Assembly (NCBI GenBank): GCA_903831455.1
Contig: CAIKXV010000282.1
Coordinates: 1 to 42,522 of the forward strand
Direction: 5' to 3'
Length of the DNA stretch: 42,522 nucleotides
Source: an uncultured Pseudomonadota bacterium
GTDB lineage: Bacteria > Pseudomonadota > Gammaproteobacteria > Burkholderiales > CAIKXV01
Part shown: positions 6,019 to 29,952 of the stretch, in pieces
How the letters are laid out: each line of letters starts with the position of its first letter
How positions within the stretch are numbered: the stretch's first letter is position 1
Notes under the pieces: generated by a model
What the model was told of the DNA's origin: nothing
Seen by the model: only the letters and a program-made list of their open reading frames with translations
The model's database searches: none
Position numbers and translations under genes: made by a program

Positions 6019-8175
6019 ATGCCTGCCGCCGCACGTCATCCGCTGGAACCCGTACTCAACCCGCGCAGCATCGCCGTCATCGGTGCCTCGCGAGACCCGT
6101 CCAAGCGCGGGTATCGGGCCATTCTTTCGCTTCAGGCCGACGGGTACCTCGGCACGATCCTGCCGATCAACCCGCGCGAGCGCGACATCCTGGGGCTGCC
6201 TGCCTATGCCAGCGTCGCCGACGCACCGGGCGAGATCGACCTGGCGATCGTCTGCACGGCCGCCGCGACCACCCCGGACGTGATCGAGGCCTGCGGGGTT
6301 CGCGGCGTCAGGGGTGCCATCCTGCTCGCGGCCGGTTTCAGCGAGGCGGGCGAAGAAGGCCGGCGCCTCGAGGAGCGCACGCTGGAGGTGGCGCGCCGGC
6401 ACGGCGTGCGGCTGATCGGCCCGAACACCAATGGCATGTTCAGCGCGCGCATGCGCTGCAACGCCTGGGGACTTCCCGACATCCCGGTCGGTCCGCTTGC
6501 GCTGATGTCGAACTCCGCGAACGTGGTCACGTCCCTCGTGCTGCAGGCACGGGTGCTCGGCCACATGGGCCTGCATACGCTGCTGAGCGTGGGCAACCAG
6601 GCCGACATCCTGTTCCACGAGTATCTCGACTGCCTCGGCAGCGACGCCGACGTGCACGCGGTGATGATGTACCTGGAAGGTTTCAAGGATGCGCGCGCCT
6701 TTGCCCAGGTCGCGCGTCGCACCACGCCCGACAAGCCGGTCGTGATGTATGTCGCGGGTCGTACCGGCGAGGGCAAGCGCGCGGCGAAGTCGCACAGCGG
6801 ATCGCTCGCGGGCGCCTACCCGGTCAATCGGGATCTCCTGAGGCAGTCGGGCGTGACGGTGGTCGAGAGGCTCTACCACCTGTATCCGGTCTCCGAGGCA
6901 CTGTCGCTGTTCCCGCCCATGCGCGGTCGGCGGGTCGCGGTGCTCTCCGAGGGCGGCGGTCCGATCACCGTGGCGGCCGATGCCCTCGTGGAGGCGGGGC
7001 TCGAGCTTGCGCCGCTCACCGAGGCGACGCAGGCGTTGATCCATTCCGTGGTGCCCAACGCCACCGCCATCTCCAATCCGGTCGACGCCGGGGGCGGCAC
7101 CGACCCGCGTGCCGACTACTATCGGCCGATCACTCAGGCGATCCTCGCGGACCCGAACGTCGACGCACTGCTGATCGTCGGCATCTGGGGCGGCTACGCC
7201 GAGCGGTTCAGCGCCGCCGCATCGGCGGACGAGGAGCCCGTCAGTCGCCTGCTCGGCGATCTGATGCGCGAGCACGGAAAGCCGGTGATCGTGCAGAGCC
7301 ACTTTGCCGATCTCCGGACGAAGGCGCTGGGCGTGCTGCGCGAGGCGGGCGTTCCCTACCAGCGGCACGTTGAAGTGGCCGTGCAGTGCCTGGCGGCCGC
7401 GGCCGACCGCTCAGCCGCGCTGCGTCGACTGGCCGGCTCGGTCGCAGCCGCTGCGACGGCTCCCGCCGCTCCCGCCGAAGCCGACGCGCTGATCGCACGC
7501 GCGCGAGCGGAGGGACGCCATCTCCTCGAACCCGAGGCCCGGGAACTGCTGCGCGCGCACGCGATCCCGGTGCCATCGCACCGGATGGTCGCGAGCGCCG
7601 CCGAGGCGGCGGCGGCAGCCGCCGAGTTCCCCGACCGGTTGCTTGCGATGAAGGTGGTGTCGCGCGACATCGTGCACAAGTCCGAAGCCGGCGGCGTGCA
7701 GTTGCGCCTGCGGGGGGGCGAGGCGCTGGCCGGGGCCTTCACGACGATCCGCGAGCGCGCGCAGGCGTGGCGCGCGGACGCGCGGCTCTCCGGCTGCCTG
7801 GTGACCCCGATGGCCGAGCCCGGCGTGGAACTCATCGTCGGCGTCATCCGCGACGGGCAGCACGGGCCGGTGGTGGTGGCCGGGCTGGGGGGCGTGTTCG
7901 TCGAGCAGCTGGGCGACGTGGCCTTCCGCGCGCCGCCGCTCTCCCGCGAGGACGCCCTGTCGATGCTCGACCAGTTGCGCTTCCGCTCGCTGCTCGAGGG
8001 CGCAAGGGGTGCCGCGCCGGTCGATCGCGAAGCGATCGCCGATCTCATCGTGCGTGTGGCGCAGGTGGCCCTTGCGCACCCGGATATCGTCGAGATCGAC
8101 CTCAATCCGGTCATCGCGCACGGCAGCGGCTACACGCTGGTCGATGCGCGGATGCTGCTGGAGGGCGTCGACTGA
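6019..8175 (+). CDS. Fused ADP-forming acetate/acyl-CoA synthetase
   Basis: 718 residues. The order is a CoA-binding Rossmann domain (NPRSIAVIGASRDPSKRGY, about residues 14-32), succinyl-CoA-ligase-like domains with a probable phospho-histidine at about residue 259 (SHSGSLAG), and a C-terminal ATP-grasp domain from about residue 490 with MKVVSRDIVHKSEAGGV and the VAGLGGVFVE motif. Enzymes of this fused alpha-beta type convert acyl-CoA, ADP and phosphate to acid, CoA and ATP, or the reverse. The position usually reading SQSG is SNSANV here, which I note without interpreting. It is followed after 121 bases by a Bug receptor on the same strand, so it may activate an acid imported through that receptor. 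The acid is not determinable. The ribosome-binding site before 6019 is weak. Confidence 0.88.
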   Translation: MPAAARHPLEPVLNPRSIAVIGASRDPSKRGYRAILSLQADGYLGTILPINPRERDILGLPAYASVADAPGEIDLAIVCTAAATTPDVIEACGVRGVRGAILLAAGFSEAGEEGRRLEERTLEVARRHGVRLIGPNTNGMFSARMRCNAWGLPDIPVGPLALMSNSANVVTSLVLQARVLGHMGLHTLLSVGNQADILFHEYLDCLGSDADVHAVMMYLEGFKDARAFAQVARRTTPDKPVVMYVAGRTGEGKRAAKSHSGSLAGAYPVNRDLLRQSGVTVVERLYHLYPVSEALSLFPPMRGRRVAVLSEGGGPITVAADALVEAGLELAPLTEATQALIHSVVPNATAISNPVDAGGGTDPRADYYRPITQAILADPNVDALLIVGIWGGYAERFSAAASADEEPVSRLLGDLMREHGKPVIVQSHFADLRTKALGVLREAGVPYQRHVEVAVQCLAAAADRSAALRRLAGSVAAAATAPAAPAEADALIARARAEGRHLLEPEARELLRAHAIPVPSHRMVASAAEAAAAAAEFPDRLLAMKVVSRDIVHKSEAGGVQLRLRGGEALAGAFTTIRERAQAWRADARLSGCLVTPMAEPGVELIVGVIRDGQHGPVVVAGLGGVFVEQLGDVAFRAPPLSREDALSMLDQLRFRSLLEGARGAAPVDREAIADLIVRVAQVALAHPDIVEIDLNPVIAHGSGYTLVDARMLLEGVD

Positions 8176-8296
8176 GTCCGTATCGGCGCGCCGCGAGGGG
8201 GTGCCCGCCGAGCCGCGTGGCCGGCGCGACCCCTGGGTGGCGCGACACCGTTTCCCGCAACGTCCTCGAGCAGGATCCGCTGACTGGAGAACCGAG

Positions 8297-9274
8297 ATGA
8301 ACAGGTCCATCGTTTCCGTCCTTGCCGCCGCGCTCGGACTGGCGGCCGCCCCGGCGTTCGCGCAGTCCTCCGGGTTCCCGAATCGTCCCGTCCGGATCAT
8401 GGTCGGGTTCGCCCCGGGGGGCAGCGTCGACCTGGTGGCGCGTGCGCTGTCCCAGCGGCTGTCCGTGATCTGGGGGCGACAGGTGGTGGTGGAGAACCGT
8501 CCCGGCGCGGCCAGCCACATCGCGGGGCTGGCGGTCTCGCGCGCGGAGCCCGATGGCCACACGCTGCTGGTGACCAGCATGGGCGCGCTGGGCACCAACC
8601 TCGCGCTGTACCGTACGATGCCCTACAACCCCCTGAAGGATCTCTCGCCGCTTGCGCTGCTGGTCAGCCAGAACCTGGTGCTGATCGTCAATCCCGCGCT
8701 ACCGGTGAAGACCGTCCGGGACTACATCTCGCTCGCCAAGGCGCGCCCGGGCGAGGTGACCTACGGCTCGGCCGGCTCGGGGGGGCCGCTGCACCTGTCC
8801 GCGGAGATGTTCGCGCATCGCGTCGGCGTACGGCTCTCCCACATCACCTACAAGGGTGGTGCGCTGGCCGCGGTCGACGTGATGGGCGGCCAGATCGCCT
8901 CGGCGTTCCAGCCGGAGCCCGAGGCTCTGCCGCACATCCGCTCCGGTCGCGTGCGCGCGATCGCCGTGACCGGCCCGAACCGCTCGCAGCAACTGCCCGA
9001 CGTGCCGACCATCGCCGAGTCCGGAGTCCCGGGCTATGCCTTCGTGAGCTGGACGGCCGCGGCCGCTCCCCCCGGGATGTCGCGCGAACTCCAGGAGCGC
9101 ATCAGCGCGGACTTCAACGCGGCGCTGAAGTCGCCCGACGTCCGGCAACGGCTGAATGAAGTGGGGCTGGAGATCACCGGAGGCACCCCGGAGCAGATGG
9201 CGACCTTTGCTCGCGCGGAGGTGAGCCGCATCGCCGAACTCGTCAAGGTTGCGGGCATCCCGCTGCTCGACTGA
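8297..9274 (+). CDS. Bug/TctC-family tripartite tricarboxylate receptor
   Basis: 325 residues from the ATG at 8297, preceded by GGAG. The open frame extends upstream to 8009, but that part lies within the CoA ligase gene in another frame. A signal peptide (MNRSIVSVLAAALGLAAAPA, cleavage after AFA) leads into FPNRPVRIMVGFAPGGSVD, the receptor hallmark, then VENRPGAASHIA, AEPDGHTLLVTS and YGSAGSGGPLHLSAE, all usual Bug motifs. It binds a small organic ligand in the periplasm. No TctA or TctB membrane subunit is encoded in the window. Probably in an operon with the CoA ligase 121 bases upstream. Confidence 0.92.
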   Translation: MNRSIVSVLAAALGLAAAPAFAQSSGFPNRPVRIMVGFAPGGSVDLVARALSQRLSVIWGRQVVVENRPGAASHIAGLAVSRAEPDGHTLLVTSMGALGTNLALYRTMPYNPLKDLSPLALLVSQNLVLIVNPALPVKTVRDYISLAKARPGEVTYGSAGSGGPLHLSAEMFAHRVGVRLSHITYKGGALAAVDVMGGQIASAFQPEPEALPHIRSGRVRAIAVTGPNRSQQLPDVPTIAESGVPGYAFVSWTAAAAPPGMSRELQERISADFNAALKSPDVRQRLNEVGLEITGGTPEQMATFARAEVSRIAELVKVAGIPLLD

Positions 9275-12176: not shown

Positions 12177-12740
12177 CTACCAGTCGGTCGCGATATCGGG
12201 CACCAGGGCCTTGGGCGAGCGACTGCCGGTCGGGCGTGTGGGAGTGCCGAGCACGATCCAGCCCACCAGCGTCTCGCCCGGCTTGCAGAAGGCCTCCACT
12301 ACCGCCGGATGGCGCACCTTGCGACCGGAGAGCATCTTGCCCGCGTAGCCCAGGCCGTGGGCTGCATTGAGGTAGTTCGTGATCGCCCCGCCGACCGCGA
12401 TCCACTGTTCGTGCTGGGGCACCAGCGGGTGGCCCAGGTCGATGCGGGCGATCACGGCAACCGTGACCGGGGCGCGCAACGCGCGCTCGCGTTCGATCGC
12501 CACCGACTCCGGGTCGCGCCCCGCCGCGTCTGCGATCTGCCCGAAGAGGGTGGCCAGGCGCTCTCGCGCCGCACCGCGAACCACGGAAAAACGGAACGGG
12601 GTGAGTTCGGCGTGGTCGGGCGCATGCAGCGCCGCCTCGGCCATCAGCGCGAGCGCGGCATCGTCTGGCGCCGGCTCGGTCAGGTGTCGCACGCCCAGCG
12701 AGTGGCGCTCGATCATCACGCGTACCGCGTCCGGGCACAT
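12177..12740 (-). CDS. Nitroreductase-family flavoprotein (YdjA-like)
   Basis: 187 residues from the ATG at 12740. The N-terminal extension of the long open frame to 13337 lies in other genes and is rejected. Family features are the RHSLGVRHL opening, the AALHAPDHAELTPFRFSVV motif (compare the APDHG...PWRF of YdjA-type enzymes), AVGGAITNYLNAAHGLGY and the C-terminal GWIVLG. These enzymes bind FMN and reduce small electron acceptors with NAD(P)H; the true substrate is seldom known. The start is 2 bases after the stop of the DsrE-like gene, so the two are translated together. Last gene of the minus-strand block that begins at fdh alpha, though it need not share its promoter. Confidence 0.85.
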   Translation of the reverse strand: MCPDAVRVMIERHSLGVRHLTEPAPDDAALALMAEAALHAPDHAELTPFRFSVVRGAARERLATLFGQIADAAGRDPESVAIERERALRAPVTVAVIARIDLGHPLVPQHEQWIAVGGAITNYLNAAHGLGYAGKMLSGRKVRHPAVVEAFCKPGETLVGWIVLGTPTRPTGSRSPKALVPDIATDW

Positions 12741-12742
12741 GG

Positions 12743-13141
12743 TCAGTACACCAGGGTGCGCCAGCGCAGATCGGCGGCGCGAGCCATGAACTGCACCGTG
12801 CCTCCGAGGCCGGCGCACTCGGGAATCAGGCGGTCGGGCGCGAGCCGGTGCGCCGCCAGCGCATCGGCGCAGGCATAGAGCCGTGCTCCGTGCGCGATGG
12901 CCTCGCGCATCGATGCGAGCACGCTCTTGGGATGCGAAGGATTCGGGCGAAGTCCCTCGGCCACGCCCGGCGCGAGCAGTCGTACGCTGGCCGCGGTGAA
13001 GTAGATCTCGACGGGCAGGTCCATCGCCGCCGCGGCGGCCGCGTGGAAGAAGGGCGTTGCGAGCCGTTCCGGCACCGTGGGATCTGCTGCCCAGAGCAGG
13101 ATCGCCACGCCCGCCGCGGGCTGATCGACGTAGCCGCTCAT
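12743..13141 (-). CDS. DsrE/DsrF-like protein
   Basis: 132 residues. It has the small alpha/beta DsrE fold pattern: a hydrophobic first strand (VAILLWAADP), LPVEIYFTAASVRLL in the middle, SVLASMREAIAHGARLYAC, then a C-terminal CAGLGGTVQF stretch. Cys91 in RLYACADAL is where DsrE/TusD-type proteins carry the cysteine that can hold a persulfide, and Cys109 is a second candidate. Members relay sulfur in sulfur oxidation or tRNA thiolation; others have no known role. It lies between the GcvH-like gene and the nitroreductase gene. A sulfur-relay role here is inference. No signal peptide. Confidence 0.75.
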   Translation of the reverse strand: MSGYVDQPAAGVAILLWAADPTVPERLATPFFHAAAAAAMDLPVEIYFTAASVRLLAPGVAEGLRPNPSHPKSVLASMREAIAHGARLYACADALAAHRLAPDRLIPECAGLGGTVQFMARAADLRWRTLVY

Positions 13142-13243
13142 GGCGTGGCCCTGCGGTCAATCGCGCCGCGGCCACTGCGGCAGGCACGTGCGTACGGGCC
13201 GGATCGGCCGATCGTCGCTCGCCTGCCGGGTGGCTTCGCTGCG

Positions 13244-13285
13244 GCGCGCAGGTGGAGGAGGGCTGCGCCCCCCGTGCCTGCGCGC
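13244..13285. other. Inverted repeat between the GcvH-like and DsrE-like genes
   Basis: The arms gcgcgcagg (13244-13252) and cctgcgcgc (13277-13285) are perfect complements, and the intervening sequence can pair further. It lies in a 202-base gap within a same-strand gene series. It has no T-run, so it may be a processing or attenuation hairpin rather than a terminator. Confidence 0.45.
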
Positions 13286-13343
13286 GGGCTCCATCCCTCC
13301 CTTCGTGGAAGTTCGACCGCTGACAACCCTCGCCCATCCCGAT

Positions 13344-13805
13344 TCATGTGCCGCCCTCGTGCGCGGTGCCGGCATCGCCTTCCCCGCGTCGATACAGCCA
13401 GGCGTGGTGCGCCATGGCCGGCGCCACGGCTGCGCCGTGCAGCAGCCGGGCGCGATCGCCGTCCCAGGCAGACAGCCGCACACGAGCGAGCCATCCCGAT
13501 CCGTACGGGTCCTGGTGCACGCGCTGCGGCTCGGTGGCCAGGTGGGCGTTGATCTCCACCACGGTTCCGGTGACGGGCGATCTCACCGAGACGATGGACT
13601 TCGCAAGTTCCGCGACCGCGATGCTCTTGCCCTGCTCGACGCGGCTGCCAGAGACTTTCGGCCGGCACATGTAGAGTTCCCCGGACAACTGCACGCCCAG
13701 CGCGGTGATGCCGACCACCGCTGAGTCGCCCTCCCGACGCGCCCAGACCTGCTCCTCGACCAGATAGTGCAGATCGTCGGGAAACTCGAGCCCGTCCACG
13801 GTCAT
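13344..13805 (-). CDS. GcvH-like lipoyl-domain protein
   Basis: 153 residues. It has the GcvH fold pattern: VVGITALGVQLSGELY at about residues 30-45, then VAELAKSIVSVRSPVTG at 64-80 where Lys69 is the expected lipoyl attachment site, then VEINAHLATEPQRVHQDPYG and GWLARVRLS. Classic GcvH has ESVK at the modified site; here it is ELAK, so the lysine is kept but the context differs. About 40 extra residues follow the domain. No gcvT or gcvP is nearby, so a role in glycine cleavage is doubtful. GcvH-like proteins (LbpA type) are known as sulfur carriers in sHdr sulfur oxidation, and a DsrE-like gene follows here. GGAG about 6 bases before 13805 supports the start. It begins 75 bases after tRNA-Sec. 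Confidence 0.8.
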   Translation of the reverse strand: MTVDGLEFPDDLHYLVEEQVWARREGDSAVVGITALGVQLSGELYMCRPKVSGSRVEQGKSIAVAELAKSIVSVRSPVTGTVVEINAHLATEPQRVHQDPYGSGWLARVRLSAWDGDRARLLHGAAVAPAMAHHAWLYRRGEGDAGTAHEGGT

Positions 13806-13880
13806 CGCGCGACTCCGGGCGTGGGTTCACCGGACAGCGCCGGGTTGCCCGAAAGATAACCGGGGCCGTGGGTACCGGGA

Positions 13881-13976
13881 TGGCGGAGGGGAATGGGAGT
13901 CGAACCCACCCGGCAACGCATAGCGCCACCCACCGGGTTTGAAGCCCGGCCGATCCACCAGGACCGTCTCCCCTCC
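13881..13976 (-). tRNA. selC: tRNA-Sec (UCA anticodon)
   Basis: 96 bases including an encoded CCA. An 8-bp acceptor stem pairs GGAGGGGA with TCCCCTCC, the long form specific to selenocysteine tRNA. The anticodon TCA is at 13942-13940 within CTTCAAA. A long variable arm follows, then a GGTTCGACTCC T-loop region. SelB carries this tRNA to the UGA codon. The 5' end is 16 bases after the selB stop, so selB and selC are probably one transcript. Confidence 0.96.
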
Positions 13977-13992
13977 GCGGGACTGGACATCT

Positions 13993-15945
13993 TCATGCTC
14001 GCGAACCCGATTGTGACACCGTATCGGATACCTCGGTGAACAGCGCGCAGTCCGGGCGAAGCCGGTGCCCATCACCGACGCGCCGGGTGACGCCGATCCG
14101 GTCGAAGTATTCCAGGATCTGGATCGCGCGCTTGCGCCCGAGTCCGGTGGCATCGCGGAAGGTGGCAGCGGTGACCGTACCGTCGTTCGCGGCCGCCAAT
14201 TGGCGTGCCAGTCCAGCGAGCGAGCGCATGGTCGCCGGCGGGTACACCAGGTCGTGAACCACCTGGTGGACATCGCCGCGCTGGGACAGGCGCGCGAGCG
14301 TCACCCGCATCAGCGGCTCGCTCTCCTGGGTGGCGCGGGCCAGATCGCGCGCCCATGCACCCTCGAAGCCCGCCTCCGCAAGTCGCGGGGCGATCTTCTG
14401 CGCGATCCGCTCGTCGACGCCGGACAGGCGCAGGCCGTGCGCAGGCAGGTGTACGCAGGCGCCGCGCGCGGCGAGGACCCCATCGCCGATCATCCAGGCG
14501 AGCAACGCCCTCCAGAGCGGCTCGGCCAGGCGCGGGAGGGCGAGTCGGCGCAGGCGCGAGGCATCCGGGCCCAGTTCGTCCGGATGGGCGGCGTGGAACG
14601 TTTCGAGCGCCCCGAGTATGCGCACGGCCGCCGCGTCGCGGTGCGTGTTCGCGAGCGCGTGGGAGGGTTCCCCGCCCGTCGTGGCGCACAATGCCATTGC
14701 CGGTGGCGGCAGCGTGCGGTGCAGCGCCTCCGCGCGCCGCCAGTGGCGCAGATCGACCCCCAGCGGTGAGACGGCGAGCAGGGCGGCGCGCCGAGCCTCC
14801 GGGGTCGGGGCGTCCCACGCGCTCAGTTCGGCCAGGCGCTGCGCCGTGCGGCGGTAGCGTGCCGGGCCGGTCGGATCGATCACCGTGCCGCCGGCAAGGG
14901 TGCGGGTCGCCGCCGCATCGCGCAGCACCACGCGATCGCCCGTCCAGGCACCGATCGGCTGGCGCAGGACCAGTTGCACCCGCGCACGCTCTCCCGGCGC
15001 GATGGACTCCACCGGGTCGAGCAGCGCCACCGTGCCCAGCGTGGAACCCGCGCCCAGGTGCACATGTACCGGAGTGCCCCCGCGCAGCGGTCGGGACTCG
15101 CCCGCCCAGACGGTGACGTGCACGTCGATCCGGTCGGTGGTCAGCGCGACGGCAGGATGCACCAGCCAGTCCCCGCGCCGGATCGCCTCCTTCGGGAATC
15201 CCGCGACCGCGAGCGCGCAACGCTCGTGCGCGTGGGCGCGTTCCACGCGCCGGTTCTGCGCGTGCACGCTGCGCACGCGCGCGAGCGGCAGCGATGTGGA
15301 GCCCGGCAGCAGCGCAAGCTCATCGCCGACGGCGATCGATCCGGCGTGGAGGGTGCCCGTGACGACCGTGCCCGTCCCCTCGACCGTGAACACGCGGTCG
15401 ACGGCCATGCGAAAGGCGAGGTGATCCTCTTCCCGCCCCGGCTGTGACGCCTCGAGCTCGAACAGTCGGGTCAGCAGCGCGTCGATGCCCTGTCCGCTGG
15501 CCGCGGACACCTGGACCGCGGGCGAGCCTTCGAGCGGGGTGCCCGCGAGCAGATCGACGGATTGCGCCGTGACCTGGGCGATCCGATCCGCGTCCACCCG
15601 GTCGCACTTGGTGACCGCCACGGTCGCCGACTGCACGCCGAGCAGCGAGAGCACCGCGAGATGCTCGCGCGTCTGCGGCATCGGGCCGTCGTCCGCAGCC
15701 ACCAGGAGCAGCGCGTGGTCGATACCGGTGGCCCCGGCGAGCATGGTGTGCACCAGCCGCTCGTGCCCGGGCACGTCGATGAATCCGATCCGCCGTCCGG
15801 AAGGGGCATCCAGGAACGCGTAGCCCAGTTCGATGCTGATGCCGCGCTGCTTCTCCTGCGGCAGTCGGTCGGTATCCACGCCGGTGAGTGCCTTCACCAG
15901 CGTGGTCTTGCCATGGTCGATGTGGCCGGCGGTGCCGATGATCAT
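13993..15945 (-). CDS. selB: Selenocysteine-specific translation elongation factor SelB
   Basis: 650 residues. The N-terminal GTPase has GHIDHGKTT (residues 7-15), DVPGHE (57-62) and TKCD (112-115), followed by EF-Tu-like beta barrels ([20 protein letters not shown] and later). The C-terminal third consists of winged-helix domains, which in SelB bind the SECIS hairpin. It delivers Sec-tRNA to the in-frame UGA of fdh alpha, encoded upstream on the same strand. The length is near the usual 610-640 residues. Its immediate neighbour upstream is fdhE rather than selA. Confidence 0.96.
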
Positions 15946-16222: not shown

Positions 16223-17230
16223 TCAGGAGACTGCGGGATCGGGTGGCGGATCGTCCGGGCCCGGATCGCCGAAGAGCAGCATCAGGTTCACGCCGTGGCG
16301 GCGCTTGTCGGTGTCGGAGACGAGCAGGTCGAGCGCGAGGGTCGCGAGGTCGTCCGCTCCGGCCTCGACCTGAGGGTCGCGATCGCTGTGCACGATCTTC
16401 AGGTAGTGGCCGCACTCGTCGCAGGTTTCGGCCTGCACCGCCGCCGCGACTGCGCCCTGGGCGTCGTCGCTGTCGGCCGGCTGCAGCGACTGATAGGCGA
16501 GCGACTTCGAGGACAGGCAGTGCGGGCACCTGATGCGCACCATGTGCCACTGCAGGCTGCACAGGCTGCAGACGAGGTAGCGCTGACCCAGGGACTCGCC
16601 GGCCGAGCGGGTGAGGCTCGCCACCGGGCGGCTGCCGCAGCAGGGGCACAGCGTCTCGTCGCCAATGCGGCCGAAGGCCCGATCCCCGCTTTGCGCGCGC
16701 ACCCCGAGCGCGAGGTGGGTCCAGTAGACCTGAAGCGCTGCGGCGATCAGCGGCGCCGCCGCGAGGTCCAACCCATGCGTGACGCCGGCGAGCAGGCAGT
16801 CGGCCTGCTGCTCGAGTTCATCGTCGGTGGTCGCCAGAACCCGCTCGACGACCGCGACCGTGGCGGCAGGCGCCGCAGCGGCGAGGCGGGGCAGCATCGC
16901 CCGCAGCGCGCCGCGCCATGCCGGATCGCGGGGCCAGTCGAGCGCGGGCAGCGTCGGTGCGCCCTGTCGCGCCGCGCGTTCGAGGGCGGCCTCGTCGGGC
17001 AGCGCGACCTCGGGGAAACACTCCAGTGCCTCGTGCTGGGCCATGGCCAGATCGCCCATGAACGCGAGGAAATCGCCCATAGGGTGCTGGCGCGAGAGCT
17101 GTCGCAGTCGCATTGCGCGCTCGGCGAAGAGGCGCGAGCGCTCCGGCCACAGGAGATAGGGCGTGTCGCCGCCAGCACGGGCCGCGATCTCCTCGGCCGA
17201 CATCACCCGGACGGTAGCGGTGACGGTCAT
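16223..17230 (-). CDS. fdhE: Formate dehydrogenase accessory protein FdhE
   Basis: 335 residues. The C-terminal half carries the FdhE zinc/iron cysteine motifs: LCPCCGSRPVAS, then LVCSLCSLQWHMVRIRCPHC, then ETCDECGHYLKIV. The N-terminal half is helical (LWPERSRLFAERAMRLRQLS). FdhE is cytoplasmic and needed for maturation of membrane-bound respiratory formate dehydrogenase before Tat export. It lies 157 bases downstream of the gamma-subunit gene on the same strand, with a hairpin in between. Confidence 0.93.
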   Translation of the reverse strand: MTVTATVRVMSAEEIAARAGGDTPYLLWPERSRLFAERAMRLRQLSRQHPMGDFLAFMGDLAMAQHEALECFPEVALPDEAALERAARQGAPTLPALDWPRDPAWRGALRAMLPRLAAAAPAATVAVVERVLATTDDELEQQADCLLAGVTHGLDLAAAPLIAAALQVYWTHLALGVRAQSGDRAFGRIGDETLCPCCGSRPVASLTRSAGESLGQRYLVCSLCSLQWHMVRIRCPHCLSSKSLAYQSLQPADSDDAQGAVAAAVQAETCDECGHYLKIVHSDRDPQVEAGADDLATLALDLLVSDTDKRRHGVNLMLLFGDPGPDDPPPDPAVS

Positions 17231-17387: not shown

Positions 17388-18008
17388 TCAGTTGCCTTTG
17401 CTGACCTGCTCGTGCCACAGCGGGTGGTTGACCTGAGCCCAGCCCTCGGTCACCGTTCCGCGGGTCATCGCGCGCAGCGTGCCCTTGACCCAGATGGCGG
17501 CATAGACGTGCATGATGGTCGACAGGATCAGCACCACGGCCGCGATCGAGTGCAGCAGCACGGCCACGCGCAGCAGGCCGATCGGGAACAGCGGAGCGAA
17601 CCACGGGCGCCAGAACATCACGCCCGTGACCAGCAGCACCGCGAGGCTGATCGCCATCGCCCAGAAGGTGACTTTCTGGCCAAAGTTGTACTTGCCTACC
17701 GGTGGCATGGCCGCCTTGTTGCCGCGAAGCATCTCACCCATCTTCTTCCGCCATTCGTGATCGGCGGCGTTGATCAGGTTGTCCCGCCACAGCTTCGCGA
17801 ACAGCAGTGCGAAGCCGGCCACCATCAGCAGGCCGAGCAGCGGGTGCAGGATGCGCGCCCACGATCCACCGCCGAAGAGGTTCACGAAGAAGAAGAAGGC
17901 GGGGTGGAAGAACGCAAGCCCGGACAGGCCCGCCAGCACGAATGTGAGCGCGATGAACCAGTGGTTCATGCGCTCGGAGTCCGAGTAGCGTTGCAGCATC
18001 CTGGCCAT
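17388..18008 (-). CDS. fdoI: Formate dehydrogenase gamma subunit, cytochrome b
   Basis: 206 residues from [17 protein letters not shown] at 18008. The longer frame to 18134 is the beta-subunit gene in another frame. Four membrane segments are visible, with histidines in and near the first (MNHWFIALTFVLAGLSGLAF) and in the last (VAVLLHSIAAVVLILSTIMH) that fit heme b ligation. It anchors the enzyme in the inner membrane and passes electrons to quinone. The ATG overlaps the beta stop codon (TGATG), so translation is coupled. Length is close to the E. coli FdnI and FdoI proteins; the choice between those two names is arbitrary. Confidence 0.93.
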   Translation of the reverse strand: MARMLQRYSDSERMNHWFIALTFVLAGLSGLAFFHPAFFFFVNLFGGGSWARILHPLLGLLMVAGFALLFAKLWRDNLINAADHEWRKKMGEMLRGNKAAMPPVGKYNFGQKVTFWAMAISLAVLLVTGVMFWRPWFAPLFPIGLLRVAVLLHSIAAVVLILSTIMHVYAAIWVKGTLRAMTRGTVTEGWAQVNHPLWHEQVSKGN

Positions 18009-18886
18009 CACGCCCCCTCCTTTTCCGTCTTCTCTTTCTCTTCGATCGGGCCGACCTTCATGTAGTGGAAGAAGCCCAGCACCATCGCGCCGAGCATGCT
18101 GGCGACTGCCAGTGGCTTGGTCGTGCCCTTCCACAGGGACACCAGCGGGCTGACCGACGGATTGGCCGGCAGGTCCTCGAGCTGGGGCTTGTCGGCATGC
18201 TTGAGCACGTACATCACGTGCGTGCCGCCAACACCCTCGGGGTTGTACAGCCCTGCGTTCTGGTGCCCCCTCTCCTTGAGTTCCTCGGCGCGCCGGTTGC
18301 CGTAGGCGACCATGTCATCCTTCGTGCCATAGGAGATGGCGCCGGTGGGACAGGTCTTCACGCAGGCGGGCTCGAGGCCCACGCTCACCCGGTCGGAGCA
18401 CAAGGTGCACTTGTAGGCCTTGTTGTCCTTCTGGCTGATGCGTGGCACATCGAACGGGCAACCCTTCACGCAGTAGCCGCAGCCGATGCAGTTCTCGGAG
18501 ACGAAGTCGACGATTCCGTTCGCGTACTTGACGATCGCACCGGGCGAAGGGCAGGCCTTGAGGCAGCCGGGGTCCTCGCAGTGCATGCAGCCGTCCTTGC
18601 GGATCAGCCACTCGAGGTTTCCCTCGGTGGGTTCGACCTCGAAGAACTTCATCACCGTCCAGCTGCTGGGGGTGAGGTCGCTCGGGTTGTCGTAGACGCC
18701 GACGTTGTTGCCGATGTCATCGCGCAGGTCGTTCCAGTTCATGCACGCGACCTGGCAGGCCTTGCAGCCGATGCATTTCGACTCGTCGATCAGCTTGGCC
18801 ACGTGGGGTGCCGCAGTGCGGATCTGCGGCGTGGGCAGCGTCGTGGCCGAGCGGGCCACGACGTCGAGGGATTGAAGACTCGACAT
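18008..18886 (-). CDS. fdoH: Formate dehydrogenase beta subunit, four [4Fe-4S] clusters
   Basis: 292 residues. Ferredoxin-type cysteine groups are at residues 38-48 ([11 protein letters not shown]), then [14 protein letters not shown], then [12 protein letters not shown], then CTLCSDR...CVKTCP. These give four clusters, as in E. coli FdnH/FdoH. A single membrane helix near the C terminus ([20 protein letters not shown]) anchors it with the gamma subunit. It carries electrons from the catalytic subunit to the cytochrome. The start is 10 bases after the alpha stop, with a GAGGAGG ribosome-binding site. Confidence 0.96.
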
Positions 18887-18896: not shown

Positions 18897-21800
18897 TCAA
18901 GCCTTCTCGATGTTGACCAGGAACGCCTTGAACTCCGGCGTCTGCGAGTTTGCGTCGCCCACGAACGGGGTCAGGGCATTGGCCAGGTAGCCGTTCTGCG
19001 TGACACCCTTGAAGCCCCAGTGGATGGGGATCCCGACGTGATGCACCTTCTTGCCGTTCACGTCGAGCGCCTTCATCCGCTTGGTGACCACGCAGGCCGC
19101 CACGACCTCCCCGCGGTTGGACTTCACCCGCACCCGATCACCCTGGCGAATGCCTTTCTCCTTCGCCAGATCGACCCCGATCTCGACGAAGGGCGCTGGC
19201 TGGACGATGGCATTGCTGCGGGAGTGCTTGGTCCAGTAGTGCAGGTGCTCGGTGAGGCGGTAGGTGGTGGCCGCGTAGGGAAACTCCTCCTTCCTGCCGA
19301 AGGCCTCGAGGTCGCCCTTGTAGACCCGGGCGGCGGGATTGCTGACCGCCTTGGCGTTGGTGGGGCACATCAGGTTCACGCCCACCGGGGTTTCGAACGG
19401 TTCGTAGTGCTCGGGGAAAGGGCCTTCCGCCATGCCGACGGCGTGCAGTCTTGCCACGCCTTCCGGGTTCATGATGAAGGCACCCACGCCCTGCTCGGGG
19501 GCTGCATCGGGCCGGATGTCGGGAATATCCGCGCCGCCTGCCCAGCTGCTGCCGTTCCAGGCAAGGTACTTGCGCGAGGGATCCCAGGGCTTGCCGTTCG
19601 CATCCGCGCTGGCGCGGTTGTAGAGGATGCGGCGGTTGGCCGGCCACGCGAATCCCCAGTTGGGGAACACGCCCAGTCCGGTCGGGTCGCTGTTGTCGCG
19701 ACGGGCCGTGAGGTTGCCCGTCGGACCCCAGCAGCCGGCGTAGATCCAGTTGCCGCAGGACGTGCTGCCGTCGTCGCGCAGCATCGCGAACCCGGGCAGC
19801 TGGTCCCCGGCCTTCACCAGCACCGTCGGCGGGGCAGCCGGGTTCTTCGGGTCGGGCGGCGACATCACGTCGGCCAGCGCGCGGCCGTTGATTTCGCGCA
19901 GCAGCTCCGCAGGGTGTGGCGCGCTCGCGTTGATGTACGGCCAGTTGAGCGCAGCGATCGGCTCCGGGAGCGTGCCGCCGTCCTTTGCGTACATCTCGCG
20001 CAGTTTCACGAACAGGCGCGCGATAATCTCGGAGTCCGGCTTGGCCAGCCCGGGCGGGTCGACCGCCTTTTCCTTCCAGCTGATCACCCGGCTGGAGTTG
20101 GTGAAGGTGCCGGTTTCCTCGGCGAAGCAACTGGTCGGGAAGCGGAACACCTCGGTGGCGATCTTCGTCGGATCGACATCGTTCAGCGGGCCGTAGTTCT
20201 TCCAGAACTCGCTCGTCTCGGTCTCCAGCGGATCCATCACCACCAGGAACTTCAGCTTCGCGAGGCCTGCCGACAGTTTCTTCTTGTTCGGCACCGCGGC
20301 CAGCGGATTGAAGCCCTGGCACAGGAAGCCGTTCATCTTGCCCTGGTGCATGCGCTCGAACATCGCGAGGATGTCGTAGGCGGCATCGCGCTTGGGCAGC
20401 CAGTCGTAGGCGAACTGGTTGTCCTTCGTGGCGGCATTCCCGTAGTAGGCCTTCATCAGGCTGGTGTGCCACTTGGGGAAGTTCTGCGTGAAGGCCATCT
20501 GGTTCGGCCGCAGAGGCTTGCCGGTGCGCGTCTCCAGGTATTTCGCCCGCGTGTCGTCCGCGTCGGTGGGGGCGCTGAGATACCCCGACAGCACCTCGGA
20601 GTAGGCGCACATGTCGGTGATGCCCTGCACGTTCGCGTGACCGCGCAGAGCGTTCACGCCGCCGCCCGGGCGGCCCATGTTGCCCAGCAGCAGCTGGATC
20701 ATGGCCATCGTGCGGATGTTCTGCGAGCCCACCGTGTGCTGGGTCCAGCCCAGCGCGTAGCAGATGGTCATCACCTTGTCCGGCGCCGAGGTGGCCGCCA
20801 GCATCTCGCAGACCTTCAGGAACTGGTCCTGGGGCGTGCCGGTGATCCTGCTGACCAGTTCGGGCGTGTACCGGGCGTAGTGCTTCTTCATCTGCTGGAA
20901 CACGCACAGCGGATTCTGCAGCGTGTCGTCGGTGAGGACGTAGCCATCCTTGCCGGTCTGATAGCCCCAGGTCGACTTGTCGTAGCTGCGACGCTCGCCG
21001 TTGTAGCCGCTGAAGAACCCGTCCTCGAACGCGTAGCCCTCCTTCGTCAGGAAGGTGGCGTCCGTGTTGAGCTTCACGTAATCGAGGTGGATCCTGTCCT
21101 TGCTCAGCAGGTAGTTGATGACACCGGCGAGGAAGGCGATGTCGGTGCCGACACGGATCGGCGCGTAATAGTCCGCCACCGCCGCGCTGCGGGTGAAGCG
21201 CGGATCGACGACGATCAGCTTCGCCTTGCGCTGCTGCATCGCTTCGGTCACCCACTTGAAACCGCAGGGGTGGGCCTCGGCGGCATTGCCGCCCATGATG
21301 AGGACGAGATCAGTGTTCTTGATATCCGTCCACGAGTTGGTCATCGCTCCGCGACCGAAAGTCGGGCCCAGACTGGACACCGTCGGCGCGTGTCAGATGC
21401 GCGCTTGCGTATCGAGCGCGACCATGCCCAGGCCGCGCGCTACCTTGACGCTTAGATAACCGGATTCGTTGGACGCGGCCGAGGACAGCAGGAAGCCGGT
21501 GCTGTTCCACCGGTTGACCGTCACGCCCTTGTCGTTGGTCGCCACCAGATTCGCATCGCGATCGGCCTTCAGGTGCCGCGCGACGCGCGTGAGCGCCTCG
21601 TCCCAGGAGATGTTCTTCCACGTGCTGGTGCCGGGTTCGCGAACCTGCGGCACCTTCACGCGGCCGGGCGACTGGATCATGTCCATGACTCCGGCACCCT
21701 TCGGGCACAGCGTGCCGCGATTGACCGGGTGGTCGGGGTCGCCTTCGACGTGGACGATCGACGCCTTGACGTTCTTCGCCTTGTCGCCGAGCGTGTACAT

Positions 21801-21980
21801 CACCAGTCCGCAGCTGACCGAGCAGTACGGACAGATGCTGCGGGTCTCTGTGGTACGGGCCAGCTTGAAGGCGCGCGTCTCGGCAATCGCCCTGGCGGGC
21901 GAGAAGCCGAGCGCGACGAGGCTGGATGCTGCCAGCCCCGCTCCGCTGACCCGGAAGAACTGCCTCCGGTCCATGTCCAT
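18897..21980 (-). CDS. fdoG: Selenocysteine formate dehydrogenase alpha subunit (read through UGA at 21395-21393)
   Basis: 1027 residues if the in-frame UGA at 21395-21393 is read as selenocysteine (residue 196, the same number as in E. coli FdnG). Without readthrough it would look like two ORFs, 21980-21393 and 21380-18897. A Tat signal, [13 protein letters not shown], leads the protein. Cys50, Cys53, Cys57 and Cys92 bind a [4Fe-4S] cluster. Selenocysteine, in ARI[12 protein letters not shown], ligates molybdenum or tungsten bis-MGD. The frame is unbroken across the UGA, and the sequence after it matches the family ([10 protein letters not shown]). The enzyme oxidises formate to CO2 on the periplasmic side. 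The start at 21980 is chosen from the Tat motif and an upstream GGAGG; the frame open to 22532 has a low-complexity extension. Confidence 0.96.
21361..21395 (-). promoter_or_regulatory. bSECIS element of fdh alpha
   Basis: Directly after the UGA the mRNA can fold: arms CGGUGUCC (21382-21375) and GGGCCCG (21369-21363) pair with one bulged U (21379) around the loop AGUCU (21374-21370). A bulged U and a GUCU-bearing loop are the features SelB recognises in the E. coli fdhF and fdnG hairpins. Confidence 0.85.
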
Positions 21981-23372: not shown

Positions 23373-24332
23373 CTACTCGAGCCGGATTCGCGCCTCGCGC
23401 ACCACTCGCTGCCAGCGGGCGACGTCCTCGCGCAGTCGCGCGGCCAGCGTCTCGGGCGTGCTGCCGACCGGCTCGACCATGCGCTCGAGGAGGTAGGCCC
23501 TCATCTCGGCGCCCTGGACGGTGCGCGCGATGGCGCCGCTGAGCAGGGCGATCGATGCGCCTGGGGTACCCGCGGGTGCGAGGACTCCGGACCACGCGTC
23601 GGCCGAGTATCCGCCCACTCCGGACTCGGCGATGGTGGGCAGGTCCGGCAGCACGGGCGAGCGCTTTGCGGTGGTGATCGCGATGCCCTTGAGCTTGCCG
23701 GCCCGGACGAGCGGGGTGCCCACGGAGGTCGGCAGGAAGGTGAAATCCACCTGCCCGCCCATCACCGCGCTCGCGGCAGGCCCCCCACCGTTGTAGGGGA
23801 TGTGGATCATGCGGGTGCCCGACATCAGTTTGAACAGCTCGACGGCCATGTGCGGATCGGTGCCCGCGCCCGGCGATGAGAAGTTCAGCGCATCCGGTTT
23901 CGCGCGCGCGAGCGCGATGAATGCCTTGACCGATCCGACCGGGACGGACGGGTGCACCGCCAGGATGTAGGACGAGGTGCCCACCCAGCTCACCGGTGCG
24001 AAGTCGCGGACCGGGTCGTAGGGCAGGTTCGGATAGAGCGCGGGGCCGATGGTGATCGCGCTGAGGGTCAGCAGCAGCGTGTGGCCATCGGGTGCCGCGC
24101 GCGCCACCGCCGCGGTGCCCAGCGTGGTGCCCGCCCCGGGGCGGTTCTCCATCACGAACGGCTGGCGCAGCGACTCGCCCAGCCGCTGGAACAGCGGCCG
24201 CCCCACGGCGTCCAGGCCACCGCCAGGCGCGTAGGGCACGATCACCCGAACGGGTCTGGCGGGATAGTCCTGGGCGTGCCCCGGCGAGGACAGCAGCGCA
24301 GCGGCCACCAGGGCGGTCATGATCGGTTTCAA
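23373..24332 (-). CDS. Bug/TctC-family tripartite tricarboxylate receptor
   Basis: 319 residues from a TTG at 24332, which has GAGGAG 7 bases upstream. GTG at 24335 is an alternative with spacing that is too short, and the ATG at 24317 is also possible. A signal peptide (MKPIMTALVAAALLSSPGHA) is followed by YPARPVRVIVPYAPGGGLD, MENRPGAGTTLG and APDGHTLLLTLS. It follows the DUF993 gene by 34 bases on the same strand and should be co-transcribed with it, so the two may act on one compound. Ligand unknown. Confidence 0.9.
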   Translation of the reverse strand: MKPIMTALVAAALLSSPGHAQDYPARPVRVIVPYAPGGGLDAVGRPLFQRLGESLRQPFVMENRPGAGTTLGTAAVARAAPDGHTLLLTLSAITIGPALYPNLPYDPVRDFAPVSWVGTSSYILAVHPSVPVGSVKAFIALARAKPDALNFSSPGAGTDPHMAVELFKLMSGTRMIHIPYNGGGPAASAVMGGQVDFTFLPTSVGTPLVRAGKLKGIAITTAKRSPVLPDLPTIAESGVGGYSADAWSGVLAPAGTPGASIALLSGAIARTVQGAEMRAYLLERMVEPVGSTPETLAARLREDVARWQRVVREARIRLE

Positions 24333-24366
24333 CACCGGACTCCTCGTGCAGGCATCGATACGCCCT

Positions 24367-25554
24367 TCAGTCGATCCCGTGGACCGCCAGCCACTGGCGC
24401 ATGCGGCGCACGGCCCGTTCGGGATGGGCGAGGCATCCGCAGGCGTCGGCGAGCCGGAAGATCCGGGCGAGGTGCGGCAGGCTGCGACTGGCCTGTTCGC
24501 CGCCGACCATGGTGAAGTGCGACTGGTGGCCGTTGAGCCAGGCCATGAAGACGACACCGGTCTTGTAGTAGCGCGTGGGTGCGTGGAACAGGTGTCGCGA
24601 CAGCGGAACAGTCGGCGCCAGGATGCGATCGAACGCCGCGCGGTCGCCCCGGCTCAACGCCCCAAGCGCGAGGCTTGCGGCCGGCGCGATGGCGTCGAAG
24701 ATGCCCAGCAGGGCGTCGCTGTGCTGCTGGCCGGGATGATCGCCCTGGCCGTCGCCCGCGATCAGTTCGGCATAATTGAAATCGTCCCCGGTGTACATGC
24801 GCACGCCCTCCGGCAGGCGGCGTCGCAGCGAGATCTCCGCAACCTTGTCCAGCAGCGAGATCTTGATGCCGTCGATCCGGTCCGCGCGGCCGCGGATGAT
24901 CTCGAGCACCGTGTCCATCGCAGCGCGTGGAGTGGAGGCCCCCCAGTAGCCGGCGAGCGCGGGGTCGAACATCTCGCCCAGCCAGTGCAGGATCACCGGC
25001 TGTCGGGCCTGGGACAGGATGCGGTCGTAGACCGCGAGGTAATCCTCGGGGCCGCGCGCGACCCGGGCGAGTGCCCGGCTGGCCATGATCACCAGCGGGC
25101 TGCCGGCCGCCTCGATCGCCTCCATCTGCGCCTCGTAGGCGGCGACCACGTCGGCCGTGCCGCGGGCCGCGTGTGGATCCAGCTGGTCGGTGCCGCACCC
25201 GGACGCCACCCGCGCGCCCGGATGGCGGCGGCTTGCCGCGACCGTGCGGCGGATCAGCTCGAGGGACTGCGGCCAGTCCATGCCCATGCCGCGCTGCGCG
25301 GTGTCCATGGCCTCGGCCACGCCGAGGCCGAGGGACCACAGGTACTCGCGGTAGGCGACCGTTCGGTCCCAGTCGACCGCGGCGCGTTCGCGCGGGTCGG
25401 TCGCAGCGAGCGGGTCGGAGACGACGTGCGCGGCGGCATACGCGACCCTGCAGGCCGGCTGCGACGGCGAGTGCTCCGGTTGGAGCGGCTGTGCGCGAAG
25501 CGTGTAGGGTTCCAGTGCTCCGTCGTACGTCGGCAGGGACAGCGTCAGCGGCAT
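24367..25554 (-). CDS. DUF993-family (dihydrodipicolinate-synthase-like) protein
   Basis: 395 residues from MPLTLSLPTYDGALEPYTL at 25554; the open frame reaching further upstream passes through a repeat-rich gap and is not used. It reads as a TIM barrel of the DapA/aldolase class: VASGCGTDQL, ARQPVILHWLGEMFDPALAG, a lysine in IDGIKISLLDK that could form a Schiff base, then MYTGDDFNYAELIAGDG. DUF993 proteins have no assigned reaction that I know of; a retro-aldol or lyase step in catabolism is plausible. It lies between two Bug receptor genes on the same strand. Confidence 0.75.
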   Translation of the reverse strand: MPLTLSLPTYDGALEPYTLRAQPLQPEHSPSQPACRVAYAAAHVVSDPLAATDPRERAAVDWDRTVAYREYLWSLGLGVAEAMDTAQRGMGMDWPQSLELIRRTVAASRRHPGARVASGCGTDQLDPHAARGTADVVAAYEAQMEAIEAAGSPLVIMASRALARVARGPEDYLAVYDRILSQARQPVILHWLGEMFDPALAGYWGASTPRAAMDTVLEIIRGRADRIDGIKISLLDKVAEISLRRRLPEGVRMYTGDDFNYAELIAGDGQGDHPGQQHSDALLGIFDAIAPAASLALGALSRGDRAAFDRILAPTVPLSRHLFHAPTRYYKTGVVFMAWLNGHQSHFTMVGGEQASRSLPHLARIFRLADACGCLAHPERAVRRMRQWLAVHGID

Positions 25555-25764
25555 GTGGACTCCGGCATGCCCCGAGGGTCGAGGCGCGCGTCCGGGCGTC
25601 GAGGCCTCGGCGCCGCAGGGCGGTTGTGCGGGGCTCGGTCCGCGGCGCTGCCGGGCCGCAGGACCGCCGGGACCGGGCGAGGGTTGCCGGAGACGATGGC
25701 CTGCAGCACGCGGGAGGGGGAGTCCCCGGACCGAACGCACGGTCCCGGATGCATTGTCGTGGCG

Positions 25765-25836
25765 CCGGGGACGCGAGCCACGCGCAGGCATGGCCGCCCG
25801 CCCGGGGCGCGGGCCACGCGCAGACCGGGCCTCCCG
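25765..25836. repeat. Two tandem imperfect 36-bp repeats
   Basis: The stretches 25765-25800 and 25801-25836 share ccgggg, gccacgcgcag and a final cccg with small differences. They lie in the 331-base gap between DUF993 and the next Bug gene, which otherwise holds nothing I can support. Confidence 0.6.
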
Positions 25837-25885
25837 CCGGGCCACCCACCGGGGGCGGCGCGAAGCCGTTCGCCGCGGACGTCGC

Positions 25886-26872
25886 TCACTGTGGCGCGAG
25901 TCCGGCCGCCTTCACCAGCGCCTCGTTGCGGCGGATCTCCTCGCGCAGGTACTCGGCGAACTGATCGGGCCGCATCGTCCATGCATCGGCCCCGAGCTTC
26001 TGGAAACGCTCCTTCACGTCGGGTTGCGCCAGCGCCTTGACCACTTCGTCGTTCAGCCGCTGCACGATATCCGTCGGCGTCTTCGCGGGTGCGAACATGC
26101 CGATCCAGAAGTTGAACTCCGATCCGGGCACGCCGGCCTCGGCCGTGGTCGGGATGCTGGGCAGCGCGCTCGCCCGGCGCGAGGACCCGACGGCCAGCGC
26201 CAGCAGTTGGCCGGACTGGATCTGGTTGATCACCGGCGCGATCGGCGAGAAGTAGTAGTCCACGCGGCCGGTGATGACCTCGGTGACCGCCTCGGCCGAC
26301 CCCTTGAACGGAACATTCACCGCCTCGATCTTCGCGGCGAGCCGGAACTTCTCGGCGTTGAGGTGGGTGGCGCTGCCCTGGCCGGCGGACGCGAAGTTGA
26401 GCGCCCCGGGCTTCGCCCGCCCCAGCGCCACCAGCTCCTGCAGTGTCCGGATGTTCTTCGCCGGCGAGATCACCAGCACGTTGGGCGTGCTGGAGATCGG
26501 GGTGATCGGCGCGAAGTCGGCCACGGTATCGAACGGCAGCTTGTTGAACGTCCACGGACTCACGGTGTGCGAGCTGGAGTGGATCATGATCGTGTAGCCG
26601 TCGGGTGCCGCGCGCGCGACCTGCGCCTGCCCGATGGTGCCGCTCGCCCCGGCCCTGTTCTCGACCAGCAGCGACTGGCCCATGCTCTGTCCCATGCGGT
26701 CGGCGATGGCCCGAGCGATGATGTCGGTGGTGCTGCCGGCCGCAAAGGGCACCACGACGCGGATCGGCCGGTTCGGATAGCCGGACTGGGCGATGGCCAT
26801 CGCCGGCAGGCTGGCGGCCGCGATGCAGGCGACGAGTCGGTACCGGCGGTTGCGCGGGCTTCGGATCGGCAT
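25886..26872 (-). CDS. Bug/TctC-family tripartite tricarboxylate receptor
   Basis: 328 residues from the ATG at 26872, with GAGGAG about 8 bases upstream. The frame open to 27142 lies antisense to nothing but overlaps the end of the next gene, so it is not used. An arginine-rich n-region and hydrophobic core (LVACIAAASLPAMAIAQ) form the signal peptide. Then come YPNRPIRVVVPFAAGSTTD, VENRAGASGTIG and APDGYTIMIHSS. The position that is usually proline-glycine-glycine reads AAGSTTD, a common variant. It lies 131 bases after the Old-Yellow-Enzyme gene and probably shares its transcript. Ligand unknown. Confidence 0.92.
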   Translation of the reverse strand: MPIRSPRNRRYRLVACIAAASLPAMAIAQSGYPNRPIRVVVPFAAGSTTDIIARAIADRMGQSMGQSLLVENRAGASGTIGQAQVARAAPDGYTIMIHSSSHTVSPWTFNKLPFDTVADFAPITPISSTPNVLVISPAKNIRTLQELVALGRAKPGALNFASAGQGSATHLNAEKFRLAAKIEAVNVPFKGSAEAVTEVITGRVDYYFSPIAPVINQIQSGQLLALAVGSSRRASALPSIPTTAEAGVPGSEFNFWIGMFAPAKTPTDIVQRLNDEVVKALAQPDVKERFQKLGADAWTMRPDQFAEYLREEIRRNEALVKAAGLAPQ

Positions 26873-27003
26873 GGGTATCTCCTCGGGGTGTGGGCAGGGC
26901 TCCGGACGGCCGCGCTCCGGGCGGGCGGGCCGCGATGCGGGATGCAGTCGTGCGTGCGGGACGGCGCTGGTTGGCGATACGCGGCTGGCCGGGGCGAAGA
27001 CGC

Positions 27004-28479
27004 TCACGCGAGCCGGGCCTCCTTCTTCACGCGCGCGAGCGTCGCCATCTCGGGCGACTTCTTGTACTGCGCGTCGAGCGGATAGCAGCCAGACACCAGC
27101 CCGTTGCGAGGCGCGGTCGTGCAGTCGCTGAACGTGCGGCACAGGCGCTTGCGCTGCATGTCCCGACCGGCGAGCAGGTCGGCGGGCAGCTCCGGGTAGG
27201 ACAGCATCAGGCGTCCGAGGCCGACGAAATCGGTCCAGCCTTCGCGCACTGCGGCCTGCGCGACATGGGGCAGGAACTCCTGCAGGTAGGTGTAGCCACT
27301 ACCGACGAACACGAGGTCGGGGAATCGATGCTTGAGATCGCGCACCGTGGCCAGGTGGCGCATTACGCCCAGCAGCGGATCTTCCGGCGGCTGGTAGCCA
27401 TCCGAGGGCGGGTAGATCGCAGGTCGAGTGAGGTGCGGGTTGTAGTAGGGGCTGCCCAGCGTGATGTTGAACAGCCGGATGCCGAGCGACCGCGCGATCT
27501 CGATGAACCCGACCGCCTCGGCCAGGCCGCACTGCGCGGGATCCGTCTCGTCGGTGCCGAAACCGTAGCGGTAGGGCAGGGCGCCTGCGAAATCGACCGG
27601 CACTCCGGGGCCGAGTACGTCGGGCGTCGATCGATCCGGGTCGGGGCGGAACGGCACCTGATCCATGGCGGACAGGCGCACACCGATATCCAGTCCGGGC
27701 GCCTCGGCCCGGATGCCGGCGACCAGTTCACGCAGGAAGCGGGTGCGGTTGTGGAGCGAGCCGCCATAGTCGCCGGCGCGCGTCTTGGCGGCGAGAAACT
27801 CGTGTCCGAGGTAGCCGTGGCAATGCTTGAGGTCGACGAAGTCGAAACCGATTTCGCGGGCTCGCTTCGCGGCGACGACGAAATCCTCGATCAGGGCCCG
27901 GATATCCCCGTCCTCGAGGATGCGGATGCGCTCGGGGGGGCCGAAGCGGCCATCGAGCAGCGGATGCCGGAACAGCACCCGCGGTTCCATGCGCGAGGGG
28001 TCATCGGGTTTGCAGAAGCGTCCCGAGTGGGTGAGCTGCAGGCCGATCATCAGACCGCTGTCGCTGCCCATTGCCCGCCGGTGCTCCGCAGCGAGCGTCT
28101 CGCGCAGGCGGGCGATCCCGGACAGGGTGTGGGGCTGCAGGACGAGCTGGCGCGGATTGGCGCGCCCGTCGTGGCGAACGGCGACGGCCTCGCCTCCCCA
28201 GATCAGCTTGGCGCCGGAGGCCCCGAATCGCTGCCACCGTCGGCGCGTGAGTTCGGTGGGGCGACCGTCCGCCTCGCCGTCCCACCCCTCCATGGGCTGC
28301 ACGCACCAGCGGTTGCCGACGGTCCGCTCGCCGAGCCGCAGCGGTTGCGCCATCGGCGATGCGTCGCCCTGCAGCGCCTCGTCGTCGCAGGGCATGTCCA
28401 CCTCGAGCCGGCGCAGGTTCTCGCGAAAGCCCGATGCGCTACCCAGCCCCTTGACCTTGATGAAATCACCGAACTTCAT
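27004..28479 (-). CDS. NADH:flavin oxidoreductase, Old Yellow Enzyme family
   Basis: 491 residues. A TIM-barrel flavoprotein: [17 protein letters not shown] opens the barrel, [17 protein letters not shown] carries the usual H-S-GR contact, and [16 protein letters not shown] corresponds to the substrate and flavin site. [19 protein letters not shown] and the late [12 protein letters not shown] are family hallmarks. It reduces an activated double bond using FMN and NAD(P)H, or demethylates like the 2,4-dienoyl-CoA reductase group. There is no C-terminal Rossmann domain, though a late cysteine-bearing stretch ([16 protein letters not shown]) resembles part of that group's cluster region. It heads the minus-strand series with Bug, DUF993 and Bug. 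Confidence 0.88.
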
Positions 28480-29862: not shown

Positions 29863-29931
29863 TTCCTTGCGGGCTTCGGGCGCCGTTGCCGGGTAACGGC
29901 CCACCGCCCAAGGCCAGAGCCCACCGCCACT

Positions 29932-29952
29932 GCGAACCGCGAACCGCGAACC
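29932..29952. repeat. Heptamer repeat (gcgaacc, three copies)
   Basis: Three exact gcgaacc units in a row in the 147-base gap between converging genes. Probably replication slippage. Confidence 0.8.

Follow-up and report, generated by a model that had tools for sequence, protein, structure and literature searches.

The window, that is the whole stretch of 42,522 nucleotides analysed here (contig G000:C282), carries on its minus strand a cluster of formate dehydrogenase (FDH) and selenocysteine (Sec) genes in the order fdhG, fdhH, fdhI, fdhE, selB, selC, followed by genes of a GcvH-like protein, a DsrE-like protein and a nitroreductase. The gene of the catalytic subunit, fdhG (18897-21980), is read through one in-frame TGA (Sec) in the same frame to give 1027 aa, and this TGA is also present in 61 Burkholderiales genomes of a 349-genome sample. 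It is followed by the genes of the Fe-S subunit (fdhH, 18008-18886; Pfam Fer4_11 and Form-deh_trans), the cytochrome b subunit (fdhI, 17388-18134; PF01292) and the FDH accessory protein (fdhE, 16223-17230; TIGR01562 above the cut-off). The Sec-specific elongation factor of 650 aa (selB, 13993-15945) was recognised by Pfam SelB domains, and tRNA-Sec with the anticodon UCA (selC, 13885-13976) by ARAGORN. Next come the GcvH-like protein (13344-13805, 153 aa; Pfam GCV_H, E=5.5e-25), in which an ELAK motif contains the putative lipoyl Lys69, the DsrE-like protein (12743-13141, 132 aa; Pfam DsrE, E=3.5e-9), with a putative persulfide Cys91, and a YdjA-type NAD(P)H nitroreductase (12177-12740, 187 aa; PF00881, E=2.7e-17). 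The sequence-only reading, which had drawn attention to these three genes behind tRNA-Sec, was right about their coordinates, common strand and order, as well as about the two bases that separate the dsrE and nitroreductase genes and the lack of a glycine-cleavage partner in the cluster, where gcvT and gcvP were not found.

As a point of correction, the gene selA is not in the window. The same genome carries a second selA-selB on contig C223 (L092:2990-6272), where neither fdh genes nor a GcvH-like/DsrE pair were found within the 14 kb read. The FDH cluster is flanked by at least five TctC-type binding proteins and a DUF993 protein (window 8009-9274 and 23373-35629).

The GcvH-like protein scored 74.9 and 92 bits, under the NCBIfam GcvH cut-offs of 115.85 and 117 bits. 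Its Glu66 and Lys69 are identical in all 93 relatives covering them among 95 loci, and in the AF2 model (pLDDT 95) Lys69 lies at a tip with strands 61-67 and 71-76 on either side, so that both the sequence and the predicted structure contain the ExxK lysine hairpin of lipoyl carriers. In a tree of 86 sequences the GcvH-like proteins of this gene pair (hereafter the module), together with LbpA, were split from GcvH with a support of 100; in the same tree LbpA of sHdr formed a group of its own (91), with the module proteins outside it. Neither gcvT nor gcvP was among the genes identified in the module clusters. The genome also encodes a canonical GcvH (126 aa, ESVKTASD motif) on a separate contig, C256, where the surrounding 3.3 kb that were read gave no gcvT or gcvP. 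Lys69 of the GcvH-like protein may carry a lipoyl group; this lipoylation stays putative, since no relative of the lipoate ligase of sHdr was seen near the module.

Cys91 of the DsrE-like protein is invariant (95/95), and no other cysteine is invariant across the 95 loci. In the AF2 model (pLDDT 96) this residue is situated between strand 86-90 and helix 92-97, and the top Foldseek matches of the model were the DsrE/DsrF structures 3mc3 and 2qs7, as well as DsrEFH. The predicted structure thus shows the DsrE/DsrF-like combination of fold and conserved cysteine at the strand-helix junction. A TusA-like N-terminal domain and a CGXC motif were not found in this single-domain protein of 132 aa. 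The module DsrE proteins form one clade (support 99) apart from the sHdr DsrE, and a related orphan DsrE of sHdr genomes falls outside this clade too. Both Lys69 and Cys91 stand where the sequence-only reading had placed them and are invariant in the relatives covering them.

Searching named genomes with the DsrE alignment gave 122 relatives, the best 80 of which were retained; these are betaproteobacterial, save for a handful of records whose titles are uninformative or odd. The records titled Bordetella parapertussis (L161, L197, L199, L200, L202) resemble misnamed environmental MAGs. Among these best 80 named loci, the GcvH-like and DsrE genes are adjacent in 79, and the loci contain selB (67/80), selC (66/80) and fdhE (54/80); all checkable FdhG of the named relatives read TGA. 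In 94 of 95 loci both genes are on the same strand, and they usually overlap, the median gap being -4 bp. The pair is split in one complete genome (G658): fdhE and selA flank the GcvH-like gene, dsrE faces selC, and both genes are still in the cluster. The 202-bp spacing between the GcvH-like gene and dsrE in the window is unusual, because in its relatives the two genes normally share about 4 bp; a search of this gap gave neither a terminator nor an inverted repeat. Beyond this gap there is nothing to suggest a chance neighbourhood or an annotation artefact, whose probability is negligible: such a reading is refuted by the conservation across 95 loci, with an invariant lysine and cysteine, overlapping genes and separate clades of both proteins. 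The arrangement, found in 79 of the 80 named loci and mostly beside sel or fdh genes, is far beyond chance.

Other genes were also met in these clusters. In 17 of the 80 loci (e.g. L217:3147-4499) selA and selB are separated by a gene of a sulfide:quinone reductase/FCSD-like flavoprotein with a Tat-like leader. A transglutaminase-like protein, also with a Tat-like leader, is encoded among the sel genes in several families (L047:5862-7067, L037:1221-2471, L155, L178, L185); a fixed role for it was considered and dropped, the loci being few.

The best PDB match of the window nitroreductase was YdjA (3bm1, 1.1e-24), and its NF008088 score was 104 bits against a cut-off of 183, so an equivalog-level match to YdjA was not reached. 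A YdjA-type nitroreductase gene is present in 26 of the best 80 named loci (of 122 relatives). Within 40 bp after dsrE the gene was found in 25 of 95 loci; the nitroreductase therefore accompanies the pair in a minority of lineages and is not the fixed third member that the sequence-only reading had made of it. In E. coli, ydjA adjoins selD.

The distribution of the module was followed in an order-wide sample of 349 Burkholderiales genomes, 70 of which encode a high-scoring FdnG-type FDH (with TGA in 61 and only Cys in nine). Of the 349 genomes, 16, from nine families, carry the pair, and all of them have a Sec-FDH or its remnant at a contig end (the contig of G030 stops short of fdhG, and the cluster of G671 is divided between contigs). 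In all 16 the pair adjoins fdh or sel genes. It was found in none of the nine Cys-only FDH genomes of this sample, nor in about 15 SelB-bearing genomes without an FdnG-type FDH, their sel loci included, and most Sec-FDH genomes of the order have no module. In a class-wide sample of 369 genomes, the best-scoring loci outside the order, which were read, showed DsrE alone, and no GcvH-like neighbour was found there. Six checked loci (L196, L199, L200, L202, L204, L205) have the pair with fdhGHI-fdhE and tRNA-Sec on another contig, and in two further cases (L203 and G083) the pair is beside sel genes with fdhG elsewhere. The neighbours at module loci include genes of TupAB-like transporters, ModE-like and MobA genes, and in 11 loci (e.g. 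L184:7442-8320) a gene of a putative selenate ABC transporter binding protein (TIGR04553, above the cut-off).

When co-occurrence and distance to the sel genes were checked across Burkholderiales, the pair was thus not mostly far from sel or fdh genes. An intact gcvTP lacking a gcvH of its own, which would likewise have spoken against the sequence-only reading, was not met either. The functional link to Sec-FDH, proposed as an inference from the window, is strongly supported by the conserved neighbourhood, the invariant lysine and cysteine, and the phylogeny. The association of the GcvH-like/DsrE pair with Sec-FDH is real, and no description of such a pair beside FDH or sel genes was found in the open-access literature searched.

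As for the origin of the cluster in this genome, FDH and the module DsrE are both lacking in the ten sampled genomes of the same genus, the window FDH shares 87% identity with the enzyme of a genome outside the family, and the cluster likewise has its closest relatives in other families (Piscinibacter, Rubrivivax and G672). Acquisition by horizontal transfer is the likeliest explanation. A mis-binned contig would likewise agree with the same-genus genomes without FDH, the second selA-selB and the cluster relatives in other families, but the tetranucleotide composition of the window fits the genome (mean correlation of 0.87-0.91 with the other contigs versus 0.84-0.93 for its own contigs), and the flanks are matched better by same-genus loci than by the loci of the cluster relatives. 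Transfer is therefore preferred over mis-binning.

LbpA proteins, which act in sHdr sulfur oxidation (PMC6067878), are among the nearest relatives of the GcvH-like protein, being 39-46% identical to the window protein. The comparison sHdr loci were verified via HdrA, HdrB and LplAB-type matches. The analogy with the sHdr lipoyl-carrier/DsrE pair, drawn already in the sequence-only reading, is strongly supported by the same three lines, gene neighbourhood, invariant lysine and cysteine, and phylogeny. It might be supposed that the pair itself works in a sulfur pathway, be it sHdr-like oxidation or a different one, and merely travels with the cluster, since sHdr LbpA and DsrE are its nearest homologues. 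This is highly improbable, as a search with five sHdr proteins, sLpl and LipT gave no homologue in 96 module loci, while the sHdr locus L052 scored as a positive control, and as the linkage to FDH is kept across nine families.

The betaproteobacterial pair probably hands sulfur or selenium to Sec-FDH. FDH requires a sulfido ligand, normally provided from IscS via FdhD (PMC12140954), and our preferred reading, held tentatively, is that the GcvH-like and DsrE proteins form a dedicated chalcogen-transfer pair for Sec-FDH that supplies sulfur for the sulfido ligand of the bis-MGD cofactor. Cys91 of DsrE would take sulfane sulfur from a cysteine desulfurase or a TusA-like donor and load it onto the dihydrolipoyl arm of Lys69. 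The resulting lipoyl persulfide would then deliver this sulfur reductively to form the terminal sulfido ligand, acting upstream of FdhD or, in genomes that lack FdhD, as its substitute. Sulfur as the cargo and the FDH cofactor as the target are suggested by the retention of the pair with fdhGHI-fdhE without tRNA-Sec, the Mo/W genes in the neighbourhood, the kinship with LbpA and the need of FDH for a sulfido ligand. Against sulfur count the presence of FdhD in most module genomes, the module apart from fdhG in L203 and G083, the genomes G639 and G590 without FdhD yet with no module, and the lack of a homologue of the sHdr lipoate ligase near the module.

In a somewhat unlikely alternative the relay would carry selenium: DsrE would hold a perselenide, the lipoyl arm would give reduced selenium to SelD/SelA, and the nitroreductase would help to reduce selenium species. 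It is favoured by the position of the pair directly after selC in most loci (selC is in 66 of the best 80 of 122), the pair with sel genes and fdhG elsewhere in L203 and G083, the TIGR04553 gene of a putative selenate transporter in 11 loci, and the nitroreductase gene ydjA beside selD in E. coli, as well as by the TusA-DsrE fusion YedF/FdhU, which is tied to selenium and FDH (PMC5322559). The pair never occurs with Cys-FDH alone, which also speaks for selenium. However, it is absent from about 15 SelB-bearing genomes without FdnG-type FDH, it remains with fdh where tRNA-Sec is elsewhere, and Sec is made without it in most Sec-FDH genomes of the order. Between sulfur for the bis-MGD sulfido ligand and selenium for SelD, sulfur is slightly more likely. 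The contrast of Sec and Cys FDHs was considered as a discriminator between the two and is uninformative, because the Cys-FDHs sit in the module-free half of the FDH tree. Protection or repair, in which the pair, with the flavoenzyme where present, would re-sulfurate or reduce O2-damaged FDH in aerobic hosts, is improbable. In its favour, many of the named hosts (Hydrogenophaga, Variovorax, Roseateles) are aerobic or facultative, and an NAD(P)H-flavin gene is coupled in 25 loci. The loss of the sulfido ligand of FDH in O2 (PMC12140954) also agrees with it, but the flavoenzyme is missing from about three quarters of the loci, and the repair reading stays conjectural.

Sulfur delivery in place of FdhD was considered separately. 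FdhD is kept in most module genomes (11/16 in the order sample and 26/35 among named genomes) and absent from the others (5/16 and 9/35). It is absent from all 13 genomes with an sHdr-type DsrE and a Sec-FDH (G014, G035, G045, G047, G050, G091, G095, G135, G604, G634, G694, G723 and G732), from two of 33 Sec-FDH genomes with neither the module nor sHdr-type DsrE, and from none of nine Cys-FDH genomes. G590 and G639 (L281 and L280) have a Sec-FDH and lack FdhD, the module and a detected sHdr-type DsrE. A naive Fisher test on the loss of FdhD, in which kinship is ignored, gave 2e-6, and a tree-aware pairs test had two informative pairs and almost no power. Since the module, sHdr and all FdhD losses fall in one half of the FDH tree, the pattern is phylogenetically confounded and is not independent evidence; FdhD replacement as an independent statistical result was accordingly rejected. 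As a lead and not a result, it suggests that FdhD can become dispensable where a lipoyl/DsrE system is present. That lipoate-dependent maturation of molybdo- and tungstoenzymes exists in this form, with a DsrE-loaded lipoyl persulfide or perselenide supplying Sec-FDH and FdhD being dispensable, appears rather unlikely.

The known roles of lipoic acid are in 2-oxoacid dehydrogenases, glycine cleavage and sHdr sulfur oxidation. If a lipoyl carrier does serve formate dehydrogenase or selenocysteine synthesis, this would be a new use of the cofactor and would help to explain how cells deliver selenium and supply FDH with its sulfido ligand. The module also opens a way to genetic work in genera of which isolates exist (Hydrogenophaga, Variovorax, Roseateles and Rhodocyclus), and it may be relevant to the production of active CO2-reducing FDHs in foreign hosts.

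Compared with known systems, the module GcvH-like protein shares the fold and the lipoyl-lysine hairpin with GcvH of glycine cleavage, but differs in its scores under the GcvH cut-offs, in a cluster where no gcvT or gcvP was found and in its separate clade (100). FdhD, acting with IscS, serves the same FDH sulfido ligand that is proposed for the module, although it belongs to an unrelated protein family and is usually co-present, sometimes missing. YedF/FdhU is likewise a DsrE-type protein with a genetic tie to selenium use and FDH (PMC5322559), whereas the module DsrE is stand-alone, has a single conserved cysteine instead of CGXC and is partnered by a lipoyl carrier. E. coli YdjA is the nearest solved structure to the nitroreductase and a neighbour of a selenium gene, but it is annotated merely as a putative oxidoreductase, and no GcvH-like/DsrE gene was found in the E. 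coli region viewed. With sHdr LbpA and DsrE the module has in common an adjacent GcvH-like carrier and DsrE-type sulfurtransferase and the conserved ExxK lysine, whereas sHdr subunits, an LplAB-type ligase and LipT are lacking nearby, the proteins fall into separate tree groups, and the linkage is to Sec-FDH instead.
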